DNA of 22,957 bases from a virus: the IMG/VR virus record IMGVR_UViG_3300042368_000371, positions 1-22,957 of that record. One strand, 5' to 3'. Under the pieces are notes generated by a model that worked only from the letters and a program-made list of their open reading frames with translations, did no database searches and had not been told where the DNA came from. The translations under genes and the position numbers were made by a program. This document shows positions 3,059 through 11,750 of this stretch, piece by piece (position 1 is the first letter of the stretch; every line of letters begins with the position of its first letter).

Positions 3059-3976
3059 TCACATCTCCTGGACTGTGTTGGTGTAGCGGGACAAGAGCCT
3101 GGGCTTGCGATGCTGCTCGTCGAGGATCATGGGGACTGCGTGAGTCCATGATATTGAATGATGGATTCTCCGATCATCACGACCCATTTCGGCAATGCTG
3201 ACGCATGAAGGAGCGTAGAGAACGCTGTAAAAACTCTTGACGTAGGTTCCGAGGTCGAGGTAGATCTCGGTCAAGCCGCCAGCGTTTGCTTGAGTTTCCT
3301 TCTGCCAAAGGCGAAGCCTCGGGACGGTCACAAAAAGATGGCCACGGCGACCCCATTCGACGTACATGTTGACGTCCTCGTTGATGCGCCCCATGAACTT
3401 GACGGGCCGGTCAACTCGAAACAAAAAGGAGTTCATGACCTTGCGGCTGAATTTCCCCTTCTTGATGTGCTTGACGAAAGTGCCTTCGCCGCCACCGATG
3501 AAGTCGCCGCCCTGGGACATGGCCACGGAGTGTGCGCCGGATTCGTCCATGAAGTCGCAGAGGGCAAAGAGGAGGTCATCGAGCTTCTTGGTGTAGATGT
3601 CTTTCGTGATGTATTCGTCGTCGTTGTCTGTGGCATAGCCAAAATAACTGTAATCGTCATCAAGCTGCCAGAAGTGGGTGAGCCCGAGATCGGCTGCAAT
3701 CTTGAAGTTTTGATTGCGAGCGTAGACGACGCTGTTGCGCTTCTTGAGGTTGTCGCCGCTGTCGGTGTTGTCGATGGCCTCTTGCTTGTTGAAAACGATC
3801 ACGGAGTCGAGGCCGTAGAGCGCCAGGTATTGCTTGATCTGTTTGTCCTCGTCATCGCAGACGAGGTAGATCTCACCGGTGTATCCGTGTTTGCGGAGGG
3901 CTTCGTAGGTGTAGACGCAGTTCGCCCTGCCGTGAGTGAGGATGAAAACTGCGAAGCGCCGTTCTTCGGTGGTCAT
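3059..3976 (-). CDS. Glycosyltransferase, TET-associated (TAGT/GREB1-like) type
   Basis: This 305-residue protein has a GT-A-like glycosyltransferase layout. It opens with a Rossmann strand FAVFILTHGRA (THGR at 14-17), then EIYLVCDDED at about 35-44, a YARNQNFKIA helix at 85-94, and a DxD metal/nucleotide-sugar motif in WQLDDDYS (DDD at 106-108). FMGRINEDVNMY (194-205) supplies a candidate catalytic acid, and QANAGGLTEIY follows at 229-239. This order matches, from memory, the TET-associated glycosyltransferase family, which is thought to glycosylate hydroxymethylated bases in DNA and is related to the C-terminal domain of GREB1. The gene overlaps the ParB-fold gene by 4 bp (ATGA) and lies 2 bp before terS, so the three are co-transcribed. 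No TET dioxygenase or base hydroxymethylase is visible in the window, so the acceptor is unknown. The GT-A fold is confident; a DNA substrate is inference. Confidence 0.8.
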   Translation of the reverse strand: MTTEERRFAVFILTHGRANCVYTYEALRKHGYTGEIYLVCDDEDKQIKQYLALYGLDSVIVFNKQEAIDNTDSGDNLKKRNSVVYARNQNFKIAADLGLTHFWQLDDDYSYFGYATDNDDEYITKDIYTKKLDDLLFALCDFMDESGAHSVAMSQGGDFIGGGEGTFVKHIKKGKFSRKVMNSFLFRVDRPVKFMGRINEDVNMYVEWGRRGHLFVTVPRLRLWQKETQANAGGLTEIYLDLGTYVKSFYSVLYAPSCVSIAEMGRDDRRIHHSISWTHAVPMILDEQHRKPRLLSRYTNTVQEM

Positions 3977-4776
3977 TGGTCGCCGCCCTTCTCGCTGGCG
4001 TAGATCTTCCCCATGGCCTGGGAGAGCTTGACGTAACCGCCCGAGATGGCTTTGTCGAAGTCGATGATGACGAGGGCGCTTTCTTCCATGAGCTGCTGCG
4101 TGTCTGGGTCTGCGTGGGCGTAGAACTCTGCGATCTGCTCAAAGTCGAAGCGGATGTGCCTGGTGGCCGCCAGCAACAAAAACTCTTTGACCTCTGGCGC
4201 CAGGTCGTTGTTTTGGTGGATCTGGGCTGTCAGCTGGGTGTACTTGGCCGGATCGTAGAGGGCTGCTGTAGGTGGGCAGTCGCCGGTGGGTTGGTAGATG
4301 GGAGCGTCGATCTTCTTGGTGTATTTGCTGGTGTCGGCATCATCGTCTGGGTCTTTTGGCATGAGGGCTGCGATTTCGTCTTTGCTGAAACCGATCAAGT
4401 CCATGCCGAAGCCGAGGCCTTGCAGCTCTGTGAGCTCGAGCGCGAGCATTTGCTCATCCCAGCCTGCGTTCATGGCCAGCTTGTTGTCGGCAATGACGTA
4501 GGCGCGTTTCTTGGCATCGCTCCAGCCTTTGGCCACCATGACAGGGACTTCGGTCATCTTTAGGCGTTGGGCTGCGAGGGTGCGACCGTGGCCGGCAATG
4601 ATGCTGCCGTCCTCATCCACCAGAACAGGGGTGGTCCAGCCCCACTCTTTGATGCTGGCTGCCAGCTGGCTGATCTGTTCGTCGGAGTGGGTGCGGCTGT
4701 TGCGTGCGTAGGGCGTGAGTTTGTCGATGCTCCAGCGTTCAACCTTGTCAGCGGGATTGTGGGTTTTTGTGGTCAT
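3973..4776 (-). CDS. ParB/Srx-fold N-terminal domain protein with unknown C-terminal domain
   Basis: This 267-residue protein has two parts. Residues about 13-110 are a ParB/sulfiredoxin-fold domain: WSIDKLTPYARNSRTHS, then SIKEWGWTTPVLVDEDGSII and the hallmark AGHGRTLAA at 61-69, followed by KKRAYVIADNKLA, a stretch typical of phage ParB domains that are often fused to DNA methyltransferases. Here no methyltransferase motif follows. Instead residues about 157-255 form a different conserved-looking domain (YQPTGDCPPTAALYD, LLLAATRHIRFDFEQIAEFY, ESALVIIDFDKAI). ParB-fold domains can bind DNA and some bind or hydrolyse nucleotides. The start at 4776 has GAAGGA about 9 bases upstream and overlaps the preceding gene by 4 bp. 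Coupling to the glycosyltransferase suggests a joint DNA-modification or DNA-marking role, but this is inference. Confidence 0.8.
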   Translation of the reverse strand: MTTKTHNPADKVERWSIDKLTPYARNSRTHSDEQISQLAASIKEWGWTTPVLVDEDGSIIAGHGRTLAAQRLKMTEVPVMVAKGWSDAKKRAYVIADNKLAMNAGWDEQMLALELTELQGLGFGMDLIGFSKDEIAALMPKDPDDDADTSKYTKKIDAPIYQPTGDCPPTAALYDPAKYTQLTAQIHQNNDLAPEVKEFLLLAATRHIRFDFEQIAEFYAHADPDTQQLMEESALVIIDFDKAISGGYVKLSQAMGKIYASEKGGDQ

Positions 4777-4955
4777 GCTGCATTGTCCTTCATGTTTTGG
4801 ATTCGCGCCAGCTTCATGGCATCTTTGAGGTCGAGGCGGAGTTGCTCGTTTGCTGCCTGCTCGTCTTGAAGTCTGATGTAGACCTCGGTGGCGAACTTGG
4901 CCAAGGTGTCGTGTTGCCAGGTTGCAAAGTTGGGGGTTTCTCTTTGTTTGGTCAT
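4773..4955 (-). CDS. Small helical hypothetical protein upstream of ParB-fold gene
   Basis: This 60-residue protein is not recognised as a named family. It is charged and predicted mostly helical, with DTLAKFATEVYIRLQDEQAA and NEQLRLDLKDAMKLARI forming a heptad-like, possibly coiled-coil stretch over residues about 15-53. It has no membrane segment, cysteines or signal peptide. Its stop overlaps the ParB-fold start by 4 bp (ATGA), so the two are probably co-translated, and it is the first gene after the origin-like region. The Shine-Dalgarno sequence is weak (AGGC about 9 bases upstream). It may be an accessory or dimerisation partner of the ParB-fold protein or simply a small leader gene of that operon. 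Confidence 0.65.
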   Translation of the reverse strand: MTKQRETPNFATWQHDTLAKFATEVYIRLQDEQAANEQLRLDLKDAMKLARIQNMKDNAA

Positions 4956-4961
4956 TTGAAT

Positions 4962-5159
4962 CTGCCTGTGGATAACTTTTTTGATGGTTGGCTGGGTTGG
5001 TTGGTGTCAGTTCGCGCTGCATCGGTCGGTAACAGGTAACCCCATCTAAAGATGGGGGTTACCGAAAGTTACCGAAAACCGCTGTTTTTGCCCCTGGTAA
5101 CAATTACGTTTTTTTACGTTACAGTTACCAGTTACCGCAATACTGCCTGTGGATAACTT
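4962..5159. repeat. 17-bp direct repeat carrying DnaA boxes
   Basis: The same 17 bases, CTGCCTGTGGATAACTT, occur at 4962-4978 and again at 5143-5159, 181 bp apart. They bracket the hexamer array. Each copy contains a perfect DnaA box, and the second copy is followed immediately by a third box at 5159-5167. The identity extends well beyond the 9-bp box, so this looks like a duplicated site rather than chance. Confidence 0.75.
5028..5136. repeat. GTTACC/GGTAAC iteron-like array with hairpin
   Basis: GGTAAC occurs at 5028-5033, 5035-5040 and 5096-5101. GTTACC occurs at 5058-5063, 5068-5073, 5124-5129 and 5131-5136, with GTTACA at 5118-5123. A 10-bp direct repeat, GTTACCGAAA, is at 5058-5067 and 5068-5077. 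The segment 5035-5046 pairs with 5051-5063 to form a stem of about 12 bp with one bulged base and a TAAA loop. No T-run follows the stem on either strand, so it does not look like a terminator. The array is probably a multi-copy protein-binding site. Confidence 0.7.
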
Positions 5160-5173
5160 GTGGATAACTTTGC

Positions 5174-7192
5174 TCATGGCATTGATTTCCGGATCAGCAT
5201 TGCGCTGGCCTGAACTTGGTCGATGACGATCCAGCCATGTTCAAAGGCCTCGATGATTTGTGCTGTGAGCAGGTCTGCGATGGGTTTTCCTGGCACGCTT
5301 GGCTTGATGTATTGCTTGGCTGAGGCTTCGCTGACGTCCAGCTTTTGCACGAAATAGTCCATGATGGCCGACCGGCTGATATAGGGTAAACCATTACGTT
5401 CTTCAGCACCTGATGACCACCAAGCGTTTTCAAAGGTCTTGCGATGGGTGTCCAGCTTGCTGTCTTTTCTGTCGGCTTTGACTGGTGCTGAGGCCTCCAC
5501 AACCACGGCGCTTGTTACTTGCTGGTCATCCTCATCGCGCCAGCCTAAGATCTCGACTGTGTGAAGTTCCACGAAAACGGTCTCGGCAAGTTCTGCGTCT
5601 TTGGACTTGCGCTGGACGATTTGCATGGGCTGGTCGTCTTTGCCTGGGATGATGCTGATCTCGATGTCGAGAGCGCCGCGCCATGCTGATGATCCCCTGG
5701 CCCTGTGCTGGGCTTCGTCTGACACGCCGGTGTGGTGCACCAAGATCACTGAGCAGTTGAATTCCATCATAAGGGCGTTGCAGGCATCCAGCATGGTCTT
5801 GGCATCTTGGGCTGAGTTCTCATCGCCTTGAAGGAAGCGGTGCAGGGTATCGACCACGATGACGCTGGGGCGCTCTTGGAGAATCCTGACCTGCTCGACC
5901 ACCTTGAGGTAGCCGGTGGGGGTGTTGAGATCGCAGCCGTCTTTGGAGAGCCACATCTTGAGCTTGCCTGCTTGATGGTGGTGCTTCCAGGCTGCGACCC
6001 TGCCACGCAGACCGTGATGGCCTTCGCCTGCGAGATACACCACATTGCCTGGCCTGACCTTGTGGCCTGACCAGTCCTCGATGCCACTGGCCATCCTGAG
6101 ACACCAGTCCAACACGACAAAGGTCTTGCCGCCGCCGCTGGGCCCATGGACCATGACCAAGGCCTGGGACTGAATCCACTTCTTGACCAGCCAGCTGATG
6201 GGGGAGGGCTGGGAGCAGAAGTCATCCGCCGGGATGAGCCAGTCATCATGGGAGGGCATGAGGAGGCTGGCCAAGTCGTGCCCTGCTTGGGCGTAGTCGT
6301 TGGCGTCCATGCCCTCGATGGGTGGGATGACGACTTTGGCCCCGTATTTTGCGCTGGCCTGGTCTGCGTAGCGCTGGCCGACGCCGTGTTTGTCATGGTC
6401 TGCCACGATAACGATGTCCTGATTTTCACCGTACATCTCGCGCAGGCTGGCTGTGACTGGCACTAAGCTGCTGGCGCTGTAGGCCACGATGCAAGGGCGG
6501 CTGGTGGTTTCGTAAATTGTCGCAGCTGTGGCAAAGCCTTCTGCCACATAGAGCGTGCCTGGTTCGTCCATTGTGCCGACCATCCAGAATTTGCCGCCTG
6601 ATTTTCCGCCTGGGTGGTAGAGCTTGCCACCGTCCTCGTCAATGTATTGCAGGGTGCTGAGTTTGCCCTCTTGATCGTAGAGGGGGACCATCAAGCGCCC
6701 GTCCCCGGTGATGCGCACGCCATGGGTCTGGATGCCTTTGCGCTTAAGGTAGGGATGATCGGGGTGAGCTGCGCCGCCACTGAGCCAGATCTTCTCAACT
6801 GTCTCGCTGGCGACTTGGTGCTGGCGCTCTTGTGCAGCTTCGCGCAAGACCTTGGACTCATTGATGCGCCTTGCGTGGGCCATCTCTTCAAACTCTGTGA
6901 GCTTGCGGCCAACGTCTGCACGCCATGTGACTTCCATGCCCATGCGCCAGCAACCAAACCGGCCTGCTGGGATGCCATCCCCAAAAACCAGATACCAGCC
7001 TGGCTTGTCGATGCCTGGCGTTCCCTTGGTTCCTGACTTGAAGCGGTGGATCTTGCCGTCCATCAGGATCTCGTCTGGTGGTTCTAGGCCTGCTGCACGC
7101 ATTGCATCAATGAGCTGTGCTTCTGGTGGTGCAACCAGTTTCTCTGGTGGTGGTGCCCATGGGCCGCCGAGGACTTTGGAGAGGTCAGCCAT
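5174..7192 (-). CDS. TOPRIM primase / RepA-like helicase
   Basis: This 672-residue protein combines primase and helicase modules. Residues 1-200 resemble the N-terminal part of phage and plasmid primase-helicases, although no zinc finger is visible. A TOPRIM domain spans about 210-300, with GTLYVAEGFATA (catalytic Glu 218) and IVIVADHDKHG (Asp 265 and 267). A RecA-fold, RepA/AAA_25-type ATPase follows: Walker A HGPSGGGKT at 349-357, YLAGEGHHGLRGR at 386-398, Walker B VIVVD at 444-448, HHTG at 486-489 and the RGSSAWRGALD element at 499-509. The C-terminal 100 residues look like a winged-helix DNA-binding domain (ISRSAIMDYFVQKLDVSEASA). It probably unwinds the fork and primes or loads at the adjacent origin-like region. 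The ATG at 7192 overlaps the HTH gene by 8 bp, and the stop lies just before the DnaA-box region. Confidence 0.9.
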   Translation of the reverse strand: MADLSKVLGGPWAPPPEKLVAPPEAQLIDAMRAAGLEPPDEILMDGKIHRFKSGTKGTPGIDKPGWYLVFGDGIPAGRFGCWRMGMEVTWRADVGRKLTEFEEMAHARRINESKVLREAAQERQHQVASETVEKIWLSGGAAHPDHPYLKRKGIQTHGVRITGDGRLMVPLYDQEGKLSTLQYIDEDGGKLYHPGGKSGGKFWMVGTMDEPGTLYVAEGFATAATIYETTSRPCIVAYSASSLVPVTASLREMYGENQDIVIVADHDKHGVGQRYADQASAKYGAKVVIPPIEGMDANDYAQAGHDLASLLMPSHDDWLIPADDFCSQPSPISWLVKKWIQSQALVMVHGPSGGGKTFVVLDWCLRMASGIEDWSGHKVRPGNVVYLAGEGHHGLRGRVAAWKHHHQAGKLKMWLSKDGCDLNTPTGYLKVVEQVRILQERPSVIVVDTLHRFLQGDENSAQDAKTMLDACNALMMEFNCSVILVHHTGVSDEAQHRARGSSAWRGALDIEISIIPGKDDQPMQIVQRKSKDAELAETVFVELHTVEILGWRDEDDQQVTSAVVVEASAPVKADRKDSKLDTHRKTFENAWWSSGAEERNGLPYISRSAIMDYFVQKLDVSEASAKQYIKPSVPGKPIADLLTAQIIEAFEHGWIVIDQVQASAMLIRKSMP

Positions 7193-7370
7193 TGACTGTT
7201 GCCTCCTGCCTGCTCAGGTAATCGCTCAGGGCTTTGACCGTCTCATAGAGGGGTTTGGATTCCTCTTGCATGAAGCGGTAGACCGTGGCCGGATGCACGC
7301 CTGCATTTTCAGCCACCCTCTTGAGATTGGCATCTTCCAGCCTTTTCTTGATTTGCTCAACAGTCATCAT
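7185..7370 (-). CDS. Small helix-turn-helix DNA-binding protein
   Basis: This 61-residue protein begins MMTVEQIKKRLEDANLKRVA and continues ENAGVHPATVYRFMQEES, a clear helix-turn-helix of the Cro/LacI-like class, with the recognition helix around residues 26-34. The C-terminal helix ETVKALSDYLSRQ is probably a dimerisation surface. It is the first gene of the leftward unit and its 3' end overlaps the primase/helicase by 8 bp. ATG at 7370 is chosen because GAGG sits about 8 bases upstream; ATG at 7367 is an alternative. A longer in-frame start at 8051 would run through the divergent control region and is rejected. It probably binds the inverted repeats at 7373-7475 and regulates both promoters (inference). 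Confidence 0.85.
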   Translation of the reverse strand: MMTVEQIKKRLEDANLKRVAENAGVHPATVYRFMQEESKPLYETVKALSDYLSRQEATVNG

Positions 7371-7405
7371 AATTTGCACCTCTGTAAAAATATTTGCGGG
7401 AGTGC

Positions 7406-7435
7406 TTGAACTATACCCGATTTTGTGTTTACAAT
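7406..7435 (+). promoter_or_regulatory. Rightward promoter candidate
   Basis: TTGAAC (7406-7411) and TACAAT (7430-7435; 5 of 6 to consensus) are separated by 18 bp. This sigma-70-like promoter would drive the Sak4-like gene and the rightward replication block. It is intertwined with the leftward -10 and -35. Confidence 0.5.
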
Positions 7436-7493: not shown

Positions 7494-8171
7494 ATGGCGA
7501 TCAATTTGAAGACGACCGGAGGCTTGACAGCCAATGGTGTGAAGTTGTTGGTTTATGGGCAGGCTGGGGCTGGCAAGACAACGCTGGTCAAGACTTTGCC
7601 GAATGTGGTGGTGCTGAGTGCTGAGGGTGGTTTGTTGTCCATTCAGGACGCTGATCTGCCCTACATTGAGATCGCCAGCATGGATGATCTGCGCGAGGCT
7701 TATTCCTGGCTGACTTCCAGCGAAGAAGCTGGCGGATTCCAGTCGGTGGCCCTGGACTCGATCAGCGAGATTGCTGAGGTATGCCTGAACACTGAGAAGA
7801 AGGCAAACAAAGATCCTCGGGCCGCCTATGGTGCGATGCAGGAGCAGATGGCCGACATCATCCGCGCCTTCCGTGACCTGCCTGGCAAGCATGTTTACAT
7901 GAGCGCGAAGCTGGAAAAGACGCAGGACGAGATGGGCCGTGTGCTGTATTCGCCCTCTATGCCTGGCAATAAGACTGGCCAGGCTTTGCCTTACTTTTTC
8001 GATGAGGTGCTGGCCCTGCGGGTCGAGCGCGACGCTGAGGGCGTGACGCAACGAGCCCTGATGTGCGACTCGGATGGCCTGTGGCTGGCCAAGGATCGCT
8101 CGGGCAAGCTGTCAGGCTGGGAAGCCCCAGACCTGGGCGCGATCATTGCCAAGATCGGGGGCAAAGCATGA
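7494..8171 (+). CDS. Sak4-like RecA-fold ATPase (single-strand annealing/recombination)
   Basis: This 225-residue protein is an AAA_24/Sak4-type ATPase: a short RecA/Rad51-like core that phages use with an SSB to promote single-strand annealing and recombination-dependent replication. The Walker A motif GQAGAGKTT is at residues 22-30. Walker B lies in FQSVALDSISE at about residue 85. HVYMSAKLEKTQDEMGR and YFFDEVLALRVER are typical of the family. It lacks the N- and C-terminal domains of full-length RecA. AGGAG lies about 8 bases before the ATG at 7494, the first gene after the rightward promoter. It is coupled by ATGA to the next gene and lies close to a DUF669 SSB-like gene and a PD-(D/E)XK nuclease, the usual partners. 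Confidence 0.88.
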   Translation: MAINLKTTGGLTANGVKLLVYGQAGAGKTTLVKTLPNVVVLSAEGGLLSIQDADLPYIEIASMDDLREAYSWLTSSEEAGGFQSVALDSISEIAEVCLNTEKKANKDPRAAYGAMQEQMADIIRAFRDLPGKHVYMSAKLEKTQDEMGRVLYSPSMPGNKTGQALPYFFDEVLALRVERDAEGVTQRALMCDSDGLWLAKDRSGKLSGWEAPDLGAIIAKIGGKA

Positions 8172-8560
8172 TGCAGCCCGACTTGAAAGAACTGTCGCGC
8201 CAGTGGATGGTGCACAAGGCTGACGAGGAAAAGGCAACCGGCGAGCGCCGCAAGATCGAGGACCAGATTGTCAAGCTGTTGGCTGTGGCCGAGAACTTCG
8301 AGGGCACTGAGACTGCGGAGCCAGAGGGCTTTGTGGTGAAGATCTCTGGCCGCATTGATCGCAAGGTCGATGGCGACAAGGTGCAGGAGCTGGCCGCCGA
8401 GTTTGGTTTGACAGACCACTTGGCCAAGCTGTTCCGCTGGAAGCCCGAACTGAACATGGCGATCTGGAAGGCAACAGACGCGACGATTACTGGGCCTTTG
8501 GCCGGTGCAATTACGGCCAAGCCTGGCCGCCCATCTTTCAAAATCATCCCCAAGGAGTAA
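8168..8560 (+). CDS. Hypothetical protein of the recombination block
   Basis: This 130-residue protein is not assigned to a named function. It starts MMQPDLKELSRQWMVHKADE, with a charged helical N-terminus (residues 1-38), then a beta-rich middle (GFVVKISGRIDRKVDGDKVQ), a helical part (LAAEFGLTDHLAKLFRWKPE) and a GRPSFKIIP end. Similar small proteins often sit between Sak4-like and DUF669 genes in phages, so a role as an accessory to the ATPase or SSB is plausible. It overlaps the previous gene by 4 bp (ATGA at 8168); ATG at 8171 is an equally possible start. The ribosome binding site of the next gene lies inside its 3' end. Confidence 0.75.
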   Translation: MMQPDLKELSRQWMVHKADEEKATGERRKIEDQIVKLLAVAENFEGTETAEPEGFVVKISGRIDRKVDGDKVQELAAEFGLTDHLAKLFRWKPELNMAIWKATDATITGPLAGAITAKPGRPSFKIIPKE

Positions 8561-8565
8561 ATATC

Positions 8566-9072
8566 ATGGCATTTCTCAACGAAGCATTTGACGTCAACGA
8601 ACTGCCCCAGGGCACTGGTGGAAACTTTGACCCGCTGCCAGCTGGTTGGTACACGGTGACGATCACGCAGGCTGAGCTGAAGGACACCAAGGCAGGCAAT
8701 GGCCAGTACATCAAGCTGCGCTACGACGTGACGGGCCCGACCCATCAAGGCCGTGTGGTGTTTGGCAACCTGAACATCAAAAACCCGAACCAGAAGGCCG
8801 AGGAGATTGGCCGCCAGCAGCTGGGGGACATCATGCGTGCGATCGGCTTGGCCAAGGTCACGGACACCGACCAGTTGATTGGCAACAGTCTGTCGATCAA
8901 GCTGGATGTGAAGAACGACGCGCAGTACGGCGCCAGCAACGAGGTGAAGGGCTTCAAGTCTATGTCTGGAAGTGCTGCACCAGCTGCCGCTGCTGTGCCG
9001 CCTTTTGTGAAGCAGGCTGAGGCTGCTCAGGCTGCCACCGCCAAGGCCGCGCCGCCTTGGGCTAAGAAGTAA
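8566..9072 (+). CDS. DUF669-family, SSB-like protein
   Basis: This 168-residue protein matches the DUF669 family of phage proteins, thought to be OB-fold single-strand DNA-binding proteins that work with Sak4-like or RecT-type recombinases. The core shows FDPLPAGWYTVTITQAELK, then GNGQYIKLRYDV and GRVVFGNLNIKNPNQKA, ending with a helical RQQLGDIMRAIGLAKV. The C-terminal 35 residues are a flexible Ala/Pro-rich tail ending PPWAKK. This differs from the acidic tip of bacterial SSB but is common in phage SSB-like proteins. AAGGAG lies 8 bases upstream of the ATG at 8566. A hairpin follows the gene. The family assignment is confident; the biochemical role is from family knowledge. Confidence 0.88.
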   Translation: MAFLNEAFDVNELPQGTGGNFDPLPAGWYTVTITQAELKDTKAGNGQYIKLRYDVTGPTHQGRVVFGNLNIKNPNQKAEEIGRQQLGDIMRAIGLAKVTDTDQLIGNSLSIKLDVKNDAQYGASNEVKGFKSMSGSAAPAAAAVPPFVKQAEAAQAATAKAAPPWAKK

Positions 9073-9075
9073 GCG

Positions 9076-9108
9076 AAAAAAATGCCCAGGCTGTTGAGGG
9101 CCTGGGCA
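9076..9108 (-). terminator. GC-rich hairpin with leftward T-run (terminator-like)
   Basis: TGCCCAGGC (9083-9091) pairs exactly with GCCTGGGCA (9100-9108) around an 8-base loop. An A7 run (9076-9082) precedes the stem, so on the minus strand the stem is followed by T7, the form of an intrinsic terminator for leftward transcription. In the rightward direction it is followed only by AAATT, so it would be at most a weak attenuator or an mRNA-processing or stabilising hairpin. Confidence 0.5.
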
Positions 9109-9129
9109 AATTCTCAAAGGAGAAACAAT

Positions 9130-10158
9130 ATGAAGATTCCCGAGTCAGAGCATACCATCCAGGCCTTGATTGACAAAGCGCATGAGGCCAAGAAGGAGGA
9201 GCCGCGCCCTCACATGGGAGCCAGTGGCCTGGGCCACCCTTGCGACCGTTGGCTGTGGTTATCGTTCCGCTGGGCGGTGCAGCCGTCTTTTCCTGGCCGG
9301 ATCCTGCGATTGTTCCGCCGTGGACAGAATGAGGAGGCCACGATCATCAGCGACCTGCGTGCAATCGGCATGGATGTGCGCAAGGTGTCGAGCCAGCACC
9401 GTGTTGACTTTGGCAGCCATGTGTCGGGAAGCCTTGACGCGATCATCGACTCTGGCGTGCCTGAAGCGCCGAAGACCAAGCACGTGGCCGAGTTCAAGAC
9501 GCACAGCAAGAAGTCGTTTGATGCTCTGGTGAAGGATGGCGTGGAGAAGTCAAAGCCCGAGCATTTTGTGCAGATGCAGGTCTACATGGCCGGGACTGGC
9601 CTGGACCGTGCGCTGTATCTGGCCGTGTGCAAGGACGATGACCGGATTCACACCGAGCGTGTGAAGTTCGACAAGGATGTGGCGCTGCCTGCCATTGCGC
9701 GTGGCCAGCGCATTGCCCTGAGTGACCGGATGCCGGAGCCGTTGAGCGCTGATCCGAGCTGGTATCAGTGCAAGTTCTGTGATGGCCACGACCAGTGCTT
9801 TGGGAGCAAGACGACCAAGCATGTGAACTGCCGAACCTGCGCGATGGCGACCCCGTTGTCGGACTCGACCTGGCACTGCGCCAAGTGGGATGATGTGATT
9901 CCGGTGGATGCCCAGCGTACAGGCTGCGAGGGCCATGTCCTGCACCCTGACCTGGTGCCGTGGCAGCGCAAGGATGGGCCGGACGAGTTCACCGCCGTGT
10001 ATGAGATCAATGGCACGACTGTGGCCAATGGCGATCCTGAGATCGAGGGCGTGTTCAGTTCGCGTGAGCTGCTGGCCAATGCTGCCGCCTGCGCTGATAA
10101 GGGCTGGACGCAACTGCACGACATGCGCAAGCAATTTGGTGGAAGGGTGGTGGGTTGA
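9130..10158 (+). CDS. PD-(D/E)XK nuclease with Cas4/AddB-like Cys cluster
   Basis: This 342-residue protein looks like a PD-(D/E)XK exonuclease. Catalytic residues are Asp103 in SGSLDAIID and Glu121 and Lys123 in VAEFKTHSK, followed by the Q148-x-Q150 helix (HFVQMQVYM) seen in RecB/Cas4-type nucleases. Cys38 in GLGHPCDRW plus Cys214, Cys217 and Cys223 (CKFCDGHDQC) resembles the four-cysteine Fe-S arrangement of Cas4/AddB. Cys234 and Cys237 (CRTC) form an extra pair. The last 100 residues carry a further module with WHCAKWDDVIPVDAQRTGCEGH. It probably resects DNA ends for the Sak4-like ATPase and SSB. ATG at 9130 has AAGGAGA 6 bases upstream; an upstream in-frame ATG at 9082 lies within the hairpin and is rejected. 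Confidence 0.85.
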   Translation: MKIPESEHTIQALIDKAHEAKKEEPRPHMGASGLGHPCDRWLWLSFRWAVQPSFPGRILRLFRRGQNEEATIISDLRAIGMDVRKVSSQHRVDFGSHVSGSLDAIIDSGVPEAPKTKHVAEFKTHSKKSFDALVKDGVEKSKPEHFVQMQVYMAGTGLDRALYLAVCKDDDRIHTERVKFDKDVALPAIARGQRIALSDRMPEPLSADPSWYQCKFCDGHDQCFGSKTTKHVNCRTCAMATPLSDSTWHCAKWDDVIPVDAQRTGCEGHVLHPDLVPWQRKDGPDEFTAVYEINGTTVANGDPEIEGVFSSRELLANAAACADKGWTQLHDMRKQFGGRVVG

Positions 10159-11750
10159 TGCTGCGTGAATACCAACAGCGCACCATCGACCAGCTGTATG
10201 CCTGGTTCGAGGCCGGTGGCCTGGGCAATCCCTGCCTGGTGCTGCCGACTGGATCTGGCAAGAGCCACATTGTGGCCGCGCTGTGCAAGGACGCCTTGCA
10301 GAACTGGCCTGAAACCCGTGTGCTGATGCTGACCCATGTCAAGGAGCTGATCGAGCAGAACGCTGAGAAGATGCGCCAGCACTGGCCTGGTGCGCCGATG
10401 GGGATCTACAGCGCCAGTATTGGCCGCAAGGACTTGGGAGAGCCGATCACGTTTGCTGGGATTCAGTCGGTGCGGAGCAAGGCGCGAGAGCTGGGGCATA
10501 TTGACCTGGTGATCATTGACGAGTGCCACCTGGTCAACCACAAAGATGGGGGCGGTTATCGCAAGCTGCTGGCCGAGCTGAAAGCGATCAACCCGAGCCT
10601 GCGCGTGATTGGCCTGACGGCCACGCCGTACCGCTTGGGGCATGGCCTGATAACCGACAAGCCTGCGATGTTTGATGACCTGCTGACGCCTGTGAGCATC
10701 GAGGAGCTGGTGTTCAAGGGGTATCTGTCCACGCTGCGCTCGAAGATCACCAAGGCCAAGCTGGATGTCACTGGTGTGAAGAAGCGCGGAGGTGAGTTCA
10801 TCGAATCCGAGCTGCAAGCTGCTGTGGACACGGACGACCAAAACCACGCTGTCGTGCGCGAGGTGATGGCCCTGGCCGGTGAGCGCAAGGCGTGGTTGTT
10901 CTTTTGCGCCGGTGTGCAGCACGCGCAGCACGTGGCCGAAGCCCTGCGCCAGCAGGGGGTGGCTGCTGAGTGTGTGACTGGTGAAACACCGAAGAAGGAG
11001 CGCGAGCGCATCCTGACCGACTTCAAGGCTGGGCGACTGCGTGCGCTGACGAACGCGAATGTGCTGACCACCGGGTTTGATTACCCCGATATCGACCTGG
11101 TGGCCATGCTGCGCCCTACGATGAGCGCCAGCCTTTATGTGCAGATGGCTGGCCGTGGCATGAGGGTCAAGAGCCACACCGATCACTGCCTGGTGCTGGA
11201 CTTTGCTGGCGTGGTGGAGACCCATGGCCCGATCACGAATGTGCAGCCGCCGAAGAAGTCGAGCAGCGATGGTGAGGGCGAAGCACCGGTGAAGGTGTGC
11301 GACCACTGTGGGGAGCTGGTGCACATCTCGATGATGACTTGCCCGTCGTGCGGTGAGCAGTTTCCTGAGCCTGTGAAGAAGGCGATGGTGTTGCGAAATG
11401 ACGACATCATGGGGCTGGAAGGCAAGGAGCTGGAGGTGAGCAGCTGGGCCTGGCGTGAGCATACGAGCCGAGCGTCTGGCATCAAAATGCTGGCGGTGAC
11501 GTACTACGGGGGGCTGAGTGACCCGCCGATCACTGAATACTTGCCGATCATGCACGAAGGTTACGCTGGCCAGAGGGCGATGGGCCTGCTGCTGAGTATT
11601 GCAAACAGCGCAAGCATTGTGCCGGGTGGCTTGAATGTGCAGACCATGATCGAGATGGTGCAGAACATGAACAACGCCACGCCGCCGAAGCTGATTGAAT
11701 ATCGCAAGGACGGGAAATTTTTTAGAGTGATGAAAAGGAGTTGGGAATGA
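10158..11750 (+). CDS. SF2 DEAD/DEAH-type helicase (RadD-like) with zinc finger
   Basis: This 530-residue protein is a superfamily 2 helicase. Visible motifs are the Q-like LREYQQRTIDQLY, Walker A PTGSGKS at 30-36, motif II DECH (LVIIDECHLVN, about 120), motif III LTATPYRLG, motif IV-like KAWLFFCAGVQHAQHV, motif V TTGFDYPDIDLV and motif VI YVQMAGRGMR. After the second RecA domain comes a CDHCGELVHI...CPSCGEQ four-cysteine zinc finger and a C-terminal domain with WAWREHTS and VTYYGG. The order resembles RadD and phage recombination helicases, which act on forks or strand-exchange intermediates. It starts at ATG 10158, overlapping the nuclease stop by 1 bp (TGATG), so the two are likely co-translated. 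Confidence 0.9.
   Translation: MLREYQQRTIDQLYAWFEAGGLGNPCLVLPTGSGKSHIVAALCKDALQNWPETRVLMLTHVKELIEQNAEKMRQHWPGAPMGIYSASIGRKDLGEPITFAGIQSVRSKARELGHIDLVIIDECHLVNHKDGGGYRKLLAELKAINPSLRVIGLTATPYRLGHGLITDKPAMFDDLLTPVSIEELVFKGYLSTLRSKITKAKLDVTGVKKRGGEFIESELQAAVDTDDQNHAVVREVMALAGERKAWLFFCAGVQHAQHVAEALRQQGVAAECVTGETPKKERERILTDFKAGRLRALTNANVLTTGFDYPDIDLVAMLRPTMSASLYVQMAGRGMRVKSHTDHCLVLDFAGVVETHGPITNVQPPKKSSSDGEGEAPVKVCDHCGELVHISMMTCPSCGEQFPEPVKKAMVLRNDDIMGLEGKELEVSSWAWREHTSRASGIKMLAVTYYGGLSDPPITEYLPIMHEGYAGQRAMGLLLSIANSASIVPGGLNVQTMIEMVQNMNNATPPKLIEYRKDGKFFRVMKRSWE

Follow-up and report, generated by a model that had tools for sequence, protein, structure and literature searches.

A putative phage replication origin whose iteron word covaries with two residues of the adjacent primase-helicase

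A gap of 218 bases, bounded by the stop codon of a primase-helicase gene and a 60-aa ORF, is very probably a start site of DNA replication, judging from its sequence and those of its relatives. It lies in the IMG/VR record IMGVR_UViG_3300042368_000371, positions 1-22,957; this whole stretch of 22,957 nucleotides, which is a fragment, is referred to as the window. It is quite likely that the gap is an origin of the phage itself, that its short repeats are bound as iterons by the C-terminal domain of the adjacent primase-helicase, that this protein loads itself, and that DnaA is a helper and not the specificity factor. The reading is based on the conservation and geometry of the element, the concerted changes of its repeat word, the covariation of the word with residues 627 and 634, compensatory changes in a hairpin, and the predicted fold of the domain. 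The features are listed in Table 1.

Table 1. Features of the candidate origin and its neighbours, in coordinates of the window.
Feature	Position	Strand	Basis or content
Candidate replication origin, whole gap	4956..5173	-	Same element directly 3' of the primase gene in almost every relative
DnaA box pair TTATCCACA-AG-TTATCCACA	5148..5167 (boxes 5148-5156, 5159-5167)	-	
Distal single DnaA box TTATCCACA	4967..4975	-	
Left iteron half	5096..5136	-	GGTAAC 5136-5131, GGTAAC 5129-5124, TGTAAC 5122-5117, inverted GTTACC 5101-5096
Spacer core (G)GGGCAAAAACAGCG separating the iteron halves	5082..5095	-	Read by eye; motif positions computed
Right iteron half	5029..5073	-	Forward GTAAC 5072-5068, 5062-5058 (10-bp step); inverted GTTAC 5040-5036, 5033-5029
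Inner hairpin CCCCATCT-TT-AGATGGGG, CTTTAG-type centre	5040..5057	-	Compensatory changes among relatives
Primase-helicase, 672 aa, proposed self-loading initiator	5174..7192	-	Toprim_3 214-303, AAA_25 321-491
C-terminal winged-helix-like domain, residues ~579-670, proposed iteron reader	5183..5458	-	AlphaFold model
Candidate specificity residues Q627, V633-P634	5291..5314; codons 5314-5312 (Q627), 5296-5291 (V633-P634)	-	Columns predicting the word perfectly or nearly
Small HTH_3 protein overlapping the primase gene start; regulator, not iteron reader	7185..7409	-	HTH_3 match
ParB-like protein	3973-4770		ParB_N, phrog_620

The sequence-only reading had described three perfect DnaA boxes, seven exact GTTACC/GGTAAC hexamers with one near match, a 17-bp direct repeat 181 bp apart, a hairpin and a T-rich segment, all next to a TOPRIM/RepA-like helicase gene and at a density far above chance. 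Each of these elements was recovered. The exact DnaA box TTATCCACA occurs three times in the window, always on the minus strand and always within the gap. The seven exact GGTAAC/GTTACC copies are in 5028-5136, and the near match is TGTAAC at 5117-5122. The direct repeat CTGCCTGTGGATAACTT is located at 4962-4978 and 5143-5159, and a third partial copy, 11-bp-spaced, supplies the third DnaA box. The hairpin arms GGTAACCCC/GGGGTTACC (5035-5043 and 5055-5063) are perfect over nine bases, and the T-run is at 5109-5115. The left iteron half contains an A7 core flanked by two ACGT, with arms complementary over 14-16 nt, and in the right half 22 bp lie between the last forward and the first inverted unit. 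Dinucleotide shuffling of the gap (5,000 replicates) never gave three or more exact DnaA boxes (mean 0.001, largest 1) or seven or more GGTAAC (largest 4), while any 6-mer reached seven or more copies in 6 replicates. A single strand of the gap folds better than shuffled versions of it (z = -3.15). Judging from the relatives, which show tandem copies at 5-bp steps, the true repeat unit is the 5-mer GTAAC and not the hexamer. A sequence within the primase gene, AACCATTACGTT at 5389-5400, matches AACAATTACGTT of the origin at 5099-5110 in 11 of 12 positions, probably by chance.

Relatives were collected from 80 IMG/VR loci found with the 672-aa protein as a query, further loci from an alignment-based search, genome contigs, and four annotated phages (CGphi29, 1N2-2, and the Alteromonas phages XX1924 and PB15), which gave about 130 distinct loci in total. 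In nearly all of them an array of one lineage-specific word of 5-6 bp, in about 5-13 copies, directly follows the primase stop codon. The hexamer is GGTAAC in the window, and GGGAAC/CGGAAC, CCCCCT, GGGTCA, CGCCCT, CGGACC, or GGGACA in other lineages; among the named phages it is GGTACA in 1N2-2, and GGTTCA in XX1924 and PB15. The cores of these words (GTAAC, GGAAC, CCCCT, TGACC, CGCCC, GTACA, GTTCA, and others) change in concert across the copies of an array. The right side has forward units in steps of 5 or 10 bp and, 20-22 bp further on, inverted units, an interval that holds in lineages down to ~54% protein identity. A CAAAA motif recurs in the spacer between the iteron halves in most lineages. 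The search for the array in relatives, which had been suggested as a check of the origin, thus revealed that layout and position are conserved and that the word is replaced between lineages.

Of 63 arrays retrieved from the DNA pattern with no regard to the protein, 60 adjoin this primase. The other three were considered as candidate satellites that have an array but no primase: L441 is a GGAAC-rich simple repeat, L436 begins at a contig end, and L430 is a candidate only. No origin is annotated in the stretch inspected in CGphi29, 1N2-2, XX1924, and PB15. The cumulative GC skew of nine near-complete relatives showed no consistent turn at the site, and is confounded by gene orientation. Host assignment through genome bins was not trusted, as the MAG labels span Opitutae to Bacteroidetes.

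The inner hairpin has a centre of the CTTTAG type in most relatives, and the sequence of its stem varies widely. Watson-Crick pairs make up 121 of the 147 outer pairs in 21 distinct versions, compared with 60 (largest 83) when the right arms were permuted between sequences. Because the pairing exceeds that of the permuted arms, it is the symmetry of the hairpin that is conserved, rather than its sequence.

The primase-helicase consists of a TOPRIM primase fused to a RecA-fold helicase, which is the feature of the T7 gp4-like class, whose helicase is hexameric. The AlphaFold model of the whole chain (mean pLDDT 83.9) was most similar to T7 gp4 and Twinkle (E down to 4e-15) in the Foldseek search, followed by RSF1010 RepA, and the sequence profile search of the helicase indicated RSF1010 RepA alone (1G8Y, E 9.1e-7). 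Residues 570-672 modelled separately reached pLDDT 91.4 and pTM 0.82, with a predicted topology of a helix, a strand, helices, and a two-strand wing. The structural neighbours of this domain are mostly winged-helix proteins, with Z of at most 7.0 and generic Foldseek matches of E above 0.03; because Z is modest, the winged-helix fold class is supported and the family is left unnamed. Sequence comparison of the domain with Pfam and PDB gave no usable match. In the model residue 627 sits in the helix 622-629, which would be the recognition helix, considering the topology together with the covariation described below.

In the close clade 59 loci were compared, with 31 GTAAC-type and 28 GGAAC-type proteins. 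Residue 627 is Q in 31/31 of the former, and V or T in 28/28 of the latter. Column 634 also separates the two types completely (59/59), column 633 does so nearly, and no other column comes close. On the tree of residues 1-555, switches between GTAAC and GGAAC occurred 12-13 times, at least 10 of which are forced by well-supported branches, and the residue goes with the word in 9 of 9 phylogenetically independent pairs (p = 0.0039). A codon scan revealed sharp single peaks at 627, 633, and 634, whereas for codons 628-632 and 635-642 prediction of the word scored 0.52-0.69, the baseline being 0.52. Since the neighbouring codons stay near the baseline, linkage alone is insufficient to explain the association, and it was rejected as the sole cause of the GTAAC/GGAAC covariation. 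In the pair L036 and L043, the rest of the C-terminal domain is nearly identical, and the differences are at 627, 633, and 634 and throughout the array. The concerted change of word and residue points to the primase-helicase as the reader of the site.

The association extends to the wider family. In a domain alignment of 58 sequences, Q is found with GTA words in 17/17, including L159 (60% identity) and L171 (42% identity), and V, T, or K is found with GGA words in 14/14, the G class of L106 being taken from the close-clade analysis; N occurs with several other words. In L012 and L067 a gene is inserted between the primase and the array, and the array still carries the word predicted by Q. The CCCCCT type corresponds to an exchange of the whole domain: L034 and L035 match L009 and L010 up to the motif AWW, and then continue with a different domain and array. 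This sharp breakpoint, seen when L034, L035, and L038 are compared with L009 and L010, indicates that the C-terminal domain and the origin were swapped as one cassette.

From these features we infer protein binding, melting, helicase loading, an involvement of DnaA, and initiation of the theta type. The C-terminal winged-helix domain would bind the short repeats as iterons, and several copies of the primase-helicase would assemble on the two inverted iteron sets. At the A-rich core and the conserved hairpin, the bound copies may then bend and melt the DNA, and there the protein would load its own helicase and the TOPRIM domain would prime. If the primase-helicase loads its own helicase and primase, a separate initiator is not needed. 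In this clade, host DnaA probably assists with opening or regulation from the boxes on either side.

The DnaA boxes are conserved less widely than the array. The box pair is kept in 29/34 GTAAC-type and 28/31 GGAAC-type origins, and the distal single box in 28/34 and 27/31, respectively, with the pair on the left and the single box on the right of the array, never inside it. The full 2+1 set is conserved in these two lineages only. None of the CCCCCT-type origins has a left pair, and the right box is present in 12/30 of them; a box beside the array is present in 0/28 origins of the GGGTCA and remaining types. In the GGGTCA phages L144, L148, and L127, exact and near DnaA boxes of either orientation cluster ~0.65-0.9 kb past the primase stop, after one further gene. 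Many unrelated viral contigs also contain TTATCCACA in tandem, the two copies separated by 2-3 bp; among 120 sampled matches, four had any match to this primase, and in only one of those were the boxes directly behind a close relative. Tandem boxes were therefore rejected as a marker of the family, and boxes in a phage-like contig are not remarkable in themselves. The sequence-only reading had proposed a theta origin recruiting host DnaA and considered it unusual for a phage with a complete replication gene of its own. The origin is retained, being strongly supported by the conserved position, the geometry, and the concerted change with a putative DNA-binding domain; the emphasis on DnaA is retained only in part, since the boxes are conserved in two lineages and the array persists without them in others, and the argument from unusualness is weak in view of the many unrelated contigs.

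Because the array persists with one or no adjoining box in lineages that use other words, the phage protein, and not DnaA, is likely the primary recogniser, and host DnaA is probably a lineage-specific helper, accessory to the origin. An origin driven by DnaA as the main initiator, in which the role of the hexamers is confined to positioning or regulating the phage helicase, would agree with the exact boxes flanking the array in this clade, with 17 larger contigs, where 39 of the 44 exact boxes fall in or close to this locus, and with P1 oriR, RK2, and pSC101, which join DnaA boxes with iterons. It is nevertheless improbable, as an array of the same geometry persists where no box adjoins it or the left pair is missing, and specificity follows the phage protein rather than the boxes. 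A different proposal concerns the boxes alone and leaves the array unexplained: they may slow host initiation by titrating DnaA, or have a regulatory role in transcription. DnaA boxes act as titration or regulatory sites in bacteria, those considered here are dispensable across the family, and tandem boxes are common elsewhere; still, this role is rather unlikely for boxes with a fixed placement on either side of the iteron zone, and nothing like a promoter or terminator was found in a scan of 4700-5500.

The array could also be an operator or a centromere read by the small HTH regulator or the ParB-like protein, whose genes are both close and whose assignments come from HTH_3, ParB_N, and ParB-like phrog_620 matches; such sites typically have inverted arrays. 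Changes of the word are accompanied by no change in either protein. HTH proteins whose last 62 aa are identical accompany GGTAAC, GGAAC-type, and AGGGGG arrays, and the ParB-like protein of the window is 100% identical to that of L038, whose array is CCCCCT. Both were rejected as readers, and this explanation, already contradicted by the sequences, is highly unlikely. The same low probability is given to a structured RNA or transcript-end element 3' of the primase gene: the compensatory changes and the favourable folding of the strand would suit it, whereas an Rfam search of the gap gave no match, no terminator-like site is present, and tandem 5-bp direct repeats covarying with a domain of DNA-binding type fit recognition of duplex DNA. 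Finally, the word and the residue may covary only as one recombination block, considering that a few hundred bases separate the domain codons from the array and that the CCCCCT type clearly came with a whole foreign C-terminal domain. For the GTAAC/GGAAC word this is very unlikely, because the codons that separate 634 from the array do not vary with it and because the near-identical domains of L036 and L043 differ at the three residues and in the array. An origin read by the primase-helicase is therefore preferred.

The putative origin shares parts with several known replicons. RepC of RSF1010 binds 20-bp iterons, and RSF1010 oriV (RepA/RepB'/RepC) resembles the present system in its homologous helicase, iterons, and hairpins, the latter used for priming in RSF1010. 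RSF1010 divides the functions among three separate proteins, whereas helicase, primase, and the proposed recognition are here in one chain; no separate iteron binder of the RepC type was found among the window proteins scanned, which represent part of the ORFs of a fragmentary contig. In P1 oriR, RK2, and pSC101, DnaA boxes stand beside an array of long iterons, and an initiator of the Rep_3 type recruits the host helicase. The three exact boxes of the window adjoin iterons likewise, but the iterons of those replicons are direct repeats of ~17-22 bp, compared with units of 5-6 bp in inverted sets here.

The ori and crr of P4 consist of short repeats (type I iterons) as the sites of alpha. P4 alpha combines a TOPRIM primase, a helicase, and C-terminal winged-helix origin binding in one protein (PMC4234260). 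This one-protein plan acting at short repeats is the same here, but alpha is a superfamily 3 helicase and the present motor is of the RecA-fold (RSF1010 RepA/T7 gp4 type), and the present origin also has DnaA boxes and a conserved inner hairpin, unlike P4. Any relatedness of the two C-terminal domains is hypothetical; the domain of alpha is absent from the top 50 fold matches of the present domain, which does not speak decisively against it. The self-loading helicases SaPI Rep and SCCmec Cch2 recognise short iterons directly 3' of the helicase gene by a C-terminal domain (PMC7581432). Multi-copy short iterons directly 3' of the gene are thus shared, as is a helicase with a C-terminal winged-helix domain, which is predicted here. 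These proteins are DUF927 or D5/Primase_Cterm helicases with a primase that is separate or of the AEP type, and no DnaA boxes are mentioned in the part of the source that deals with them. The window protein has no superfamily 3/D5/DUF927 helicase core, as seen from AAA_25, the RepA match, and the gp4/Twinkle fold. Because its motor is of the RecA-fold, it is not a member of the P4 alpha/SaPI Rep type despite the similar plan.

In the archaeal plasmid pRN1 (ORF904), the origin is directly 3' of the replication gene, a stem-loop is conserved in shape and not in sequence, and the protein has a C-terminal winged helix (PMC4234260). It has an AEP primase and an SF3 helicase without iterons, in contrast to the iterons here. 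For the Vibrio PLE RepA and ori, the DNA-binding domain of the initiator covaries with iterons, the modules were swapped repeatedly, and the cognate pairing is experimental (PMC8263062). There the initiator is of the RepA_N type, the iterons are ~30 bp, and whole domains are swapped, whereas a two-residue change is seen here. Geminiviruses follow the same principle, with variable 5-6 nt iterons matched to Rep (PMC12548392). No report on the origin of this phage family or its residue-word code was found in the open-access literature, which was the scope of the search (subscription literature lay outside it); papers on isolated members may describe the origin.

Several observations were made on the neighbouring genes. 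A glycosyltransferase at 3059-3976 (-) matches Pfam TAGT (TET-associated glycosyltransferase; E 6.6e-33), which suggests possible modification of DNA bases. Of 18 related records, just one other, G001, contains a match. No TET/JBP partner for it was detected, and the same search was positive in no control genome either. A divergent recombination module at 7494-11750 (+) encodes a Sak4-like annealing protein, an SSB-like DUF669 protein, a Cas4-domain exonuclease, and a DEAD/ResIII helicase. The primase module is flanked by a Sak4-like protein and other recombination genes in CGphi29 and 1N2-2; in XX1924 and PB15 its neighbours are an ATPase and a YqaJ-type recombinase. In L012, a cellular-looking gene for a PlsC-type acyltransferase (Pfam Acyltransferase, E 1.1e-13) lies between the primase stop (~6019) and the origin, which is intact behind it, ~1 kb past the stop.

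An initiator that changes its specificity has to do so along with ten copies of its binding site while staying functional, and how this is achieved is an open problem. Based on the sequence comparisons, the origin of the window is probably a real, functional replication origin with an unusually clean natural specificity switch. The recognition code is readable and testable in vitro, because the near-identical pair L036 and L043 differs at three predicted recognition residues and in the array, and relatives offer many further solutions. The chances are about even that, in a widespread phage family, a primase-helicase of the T7 gp4/RepA type has turned into its own origin-recognition protein, in which a switch at 627 and 634 (with 633), within one predicted helix and its loop, re-addresses the replicon and about ten iterons follow, and that one clade has seen this about ten times or more; the result would be a recognition code evolved in nature, which probably keeps changing because co-infecting replicons, satellites, or nucleases that target origins compete. 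If this is true, self-loading, origin-reading helicases extend to the RecA-fold (T7 gp4/Twinkle-like) class.
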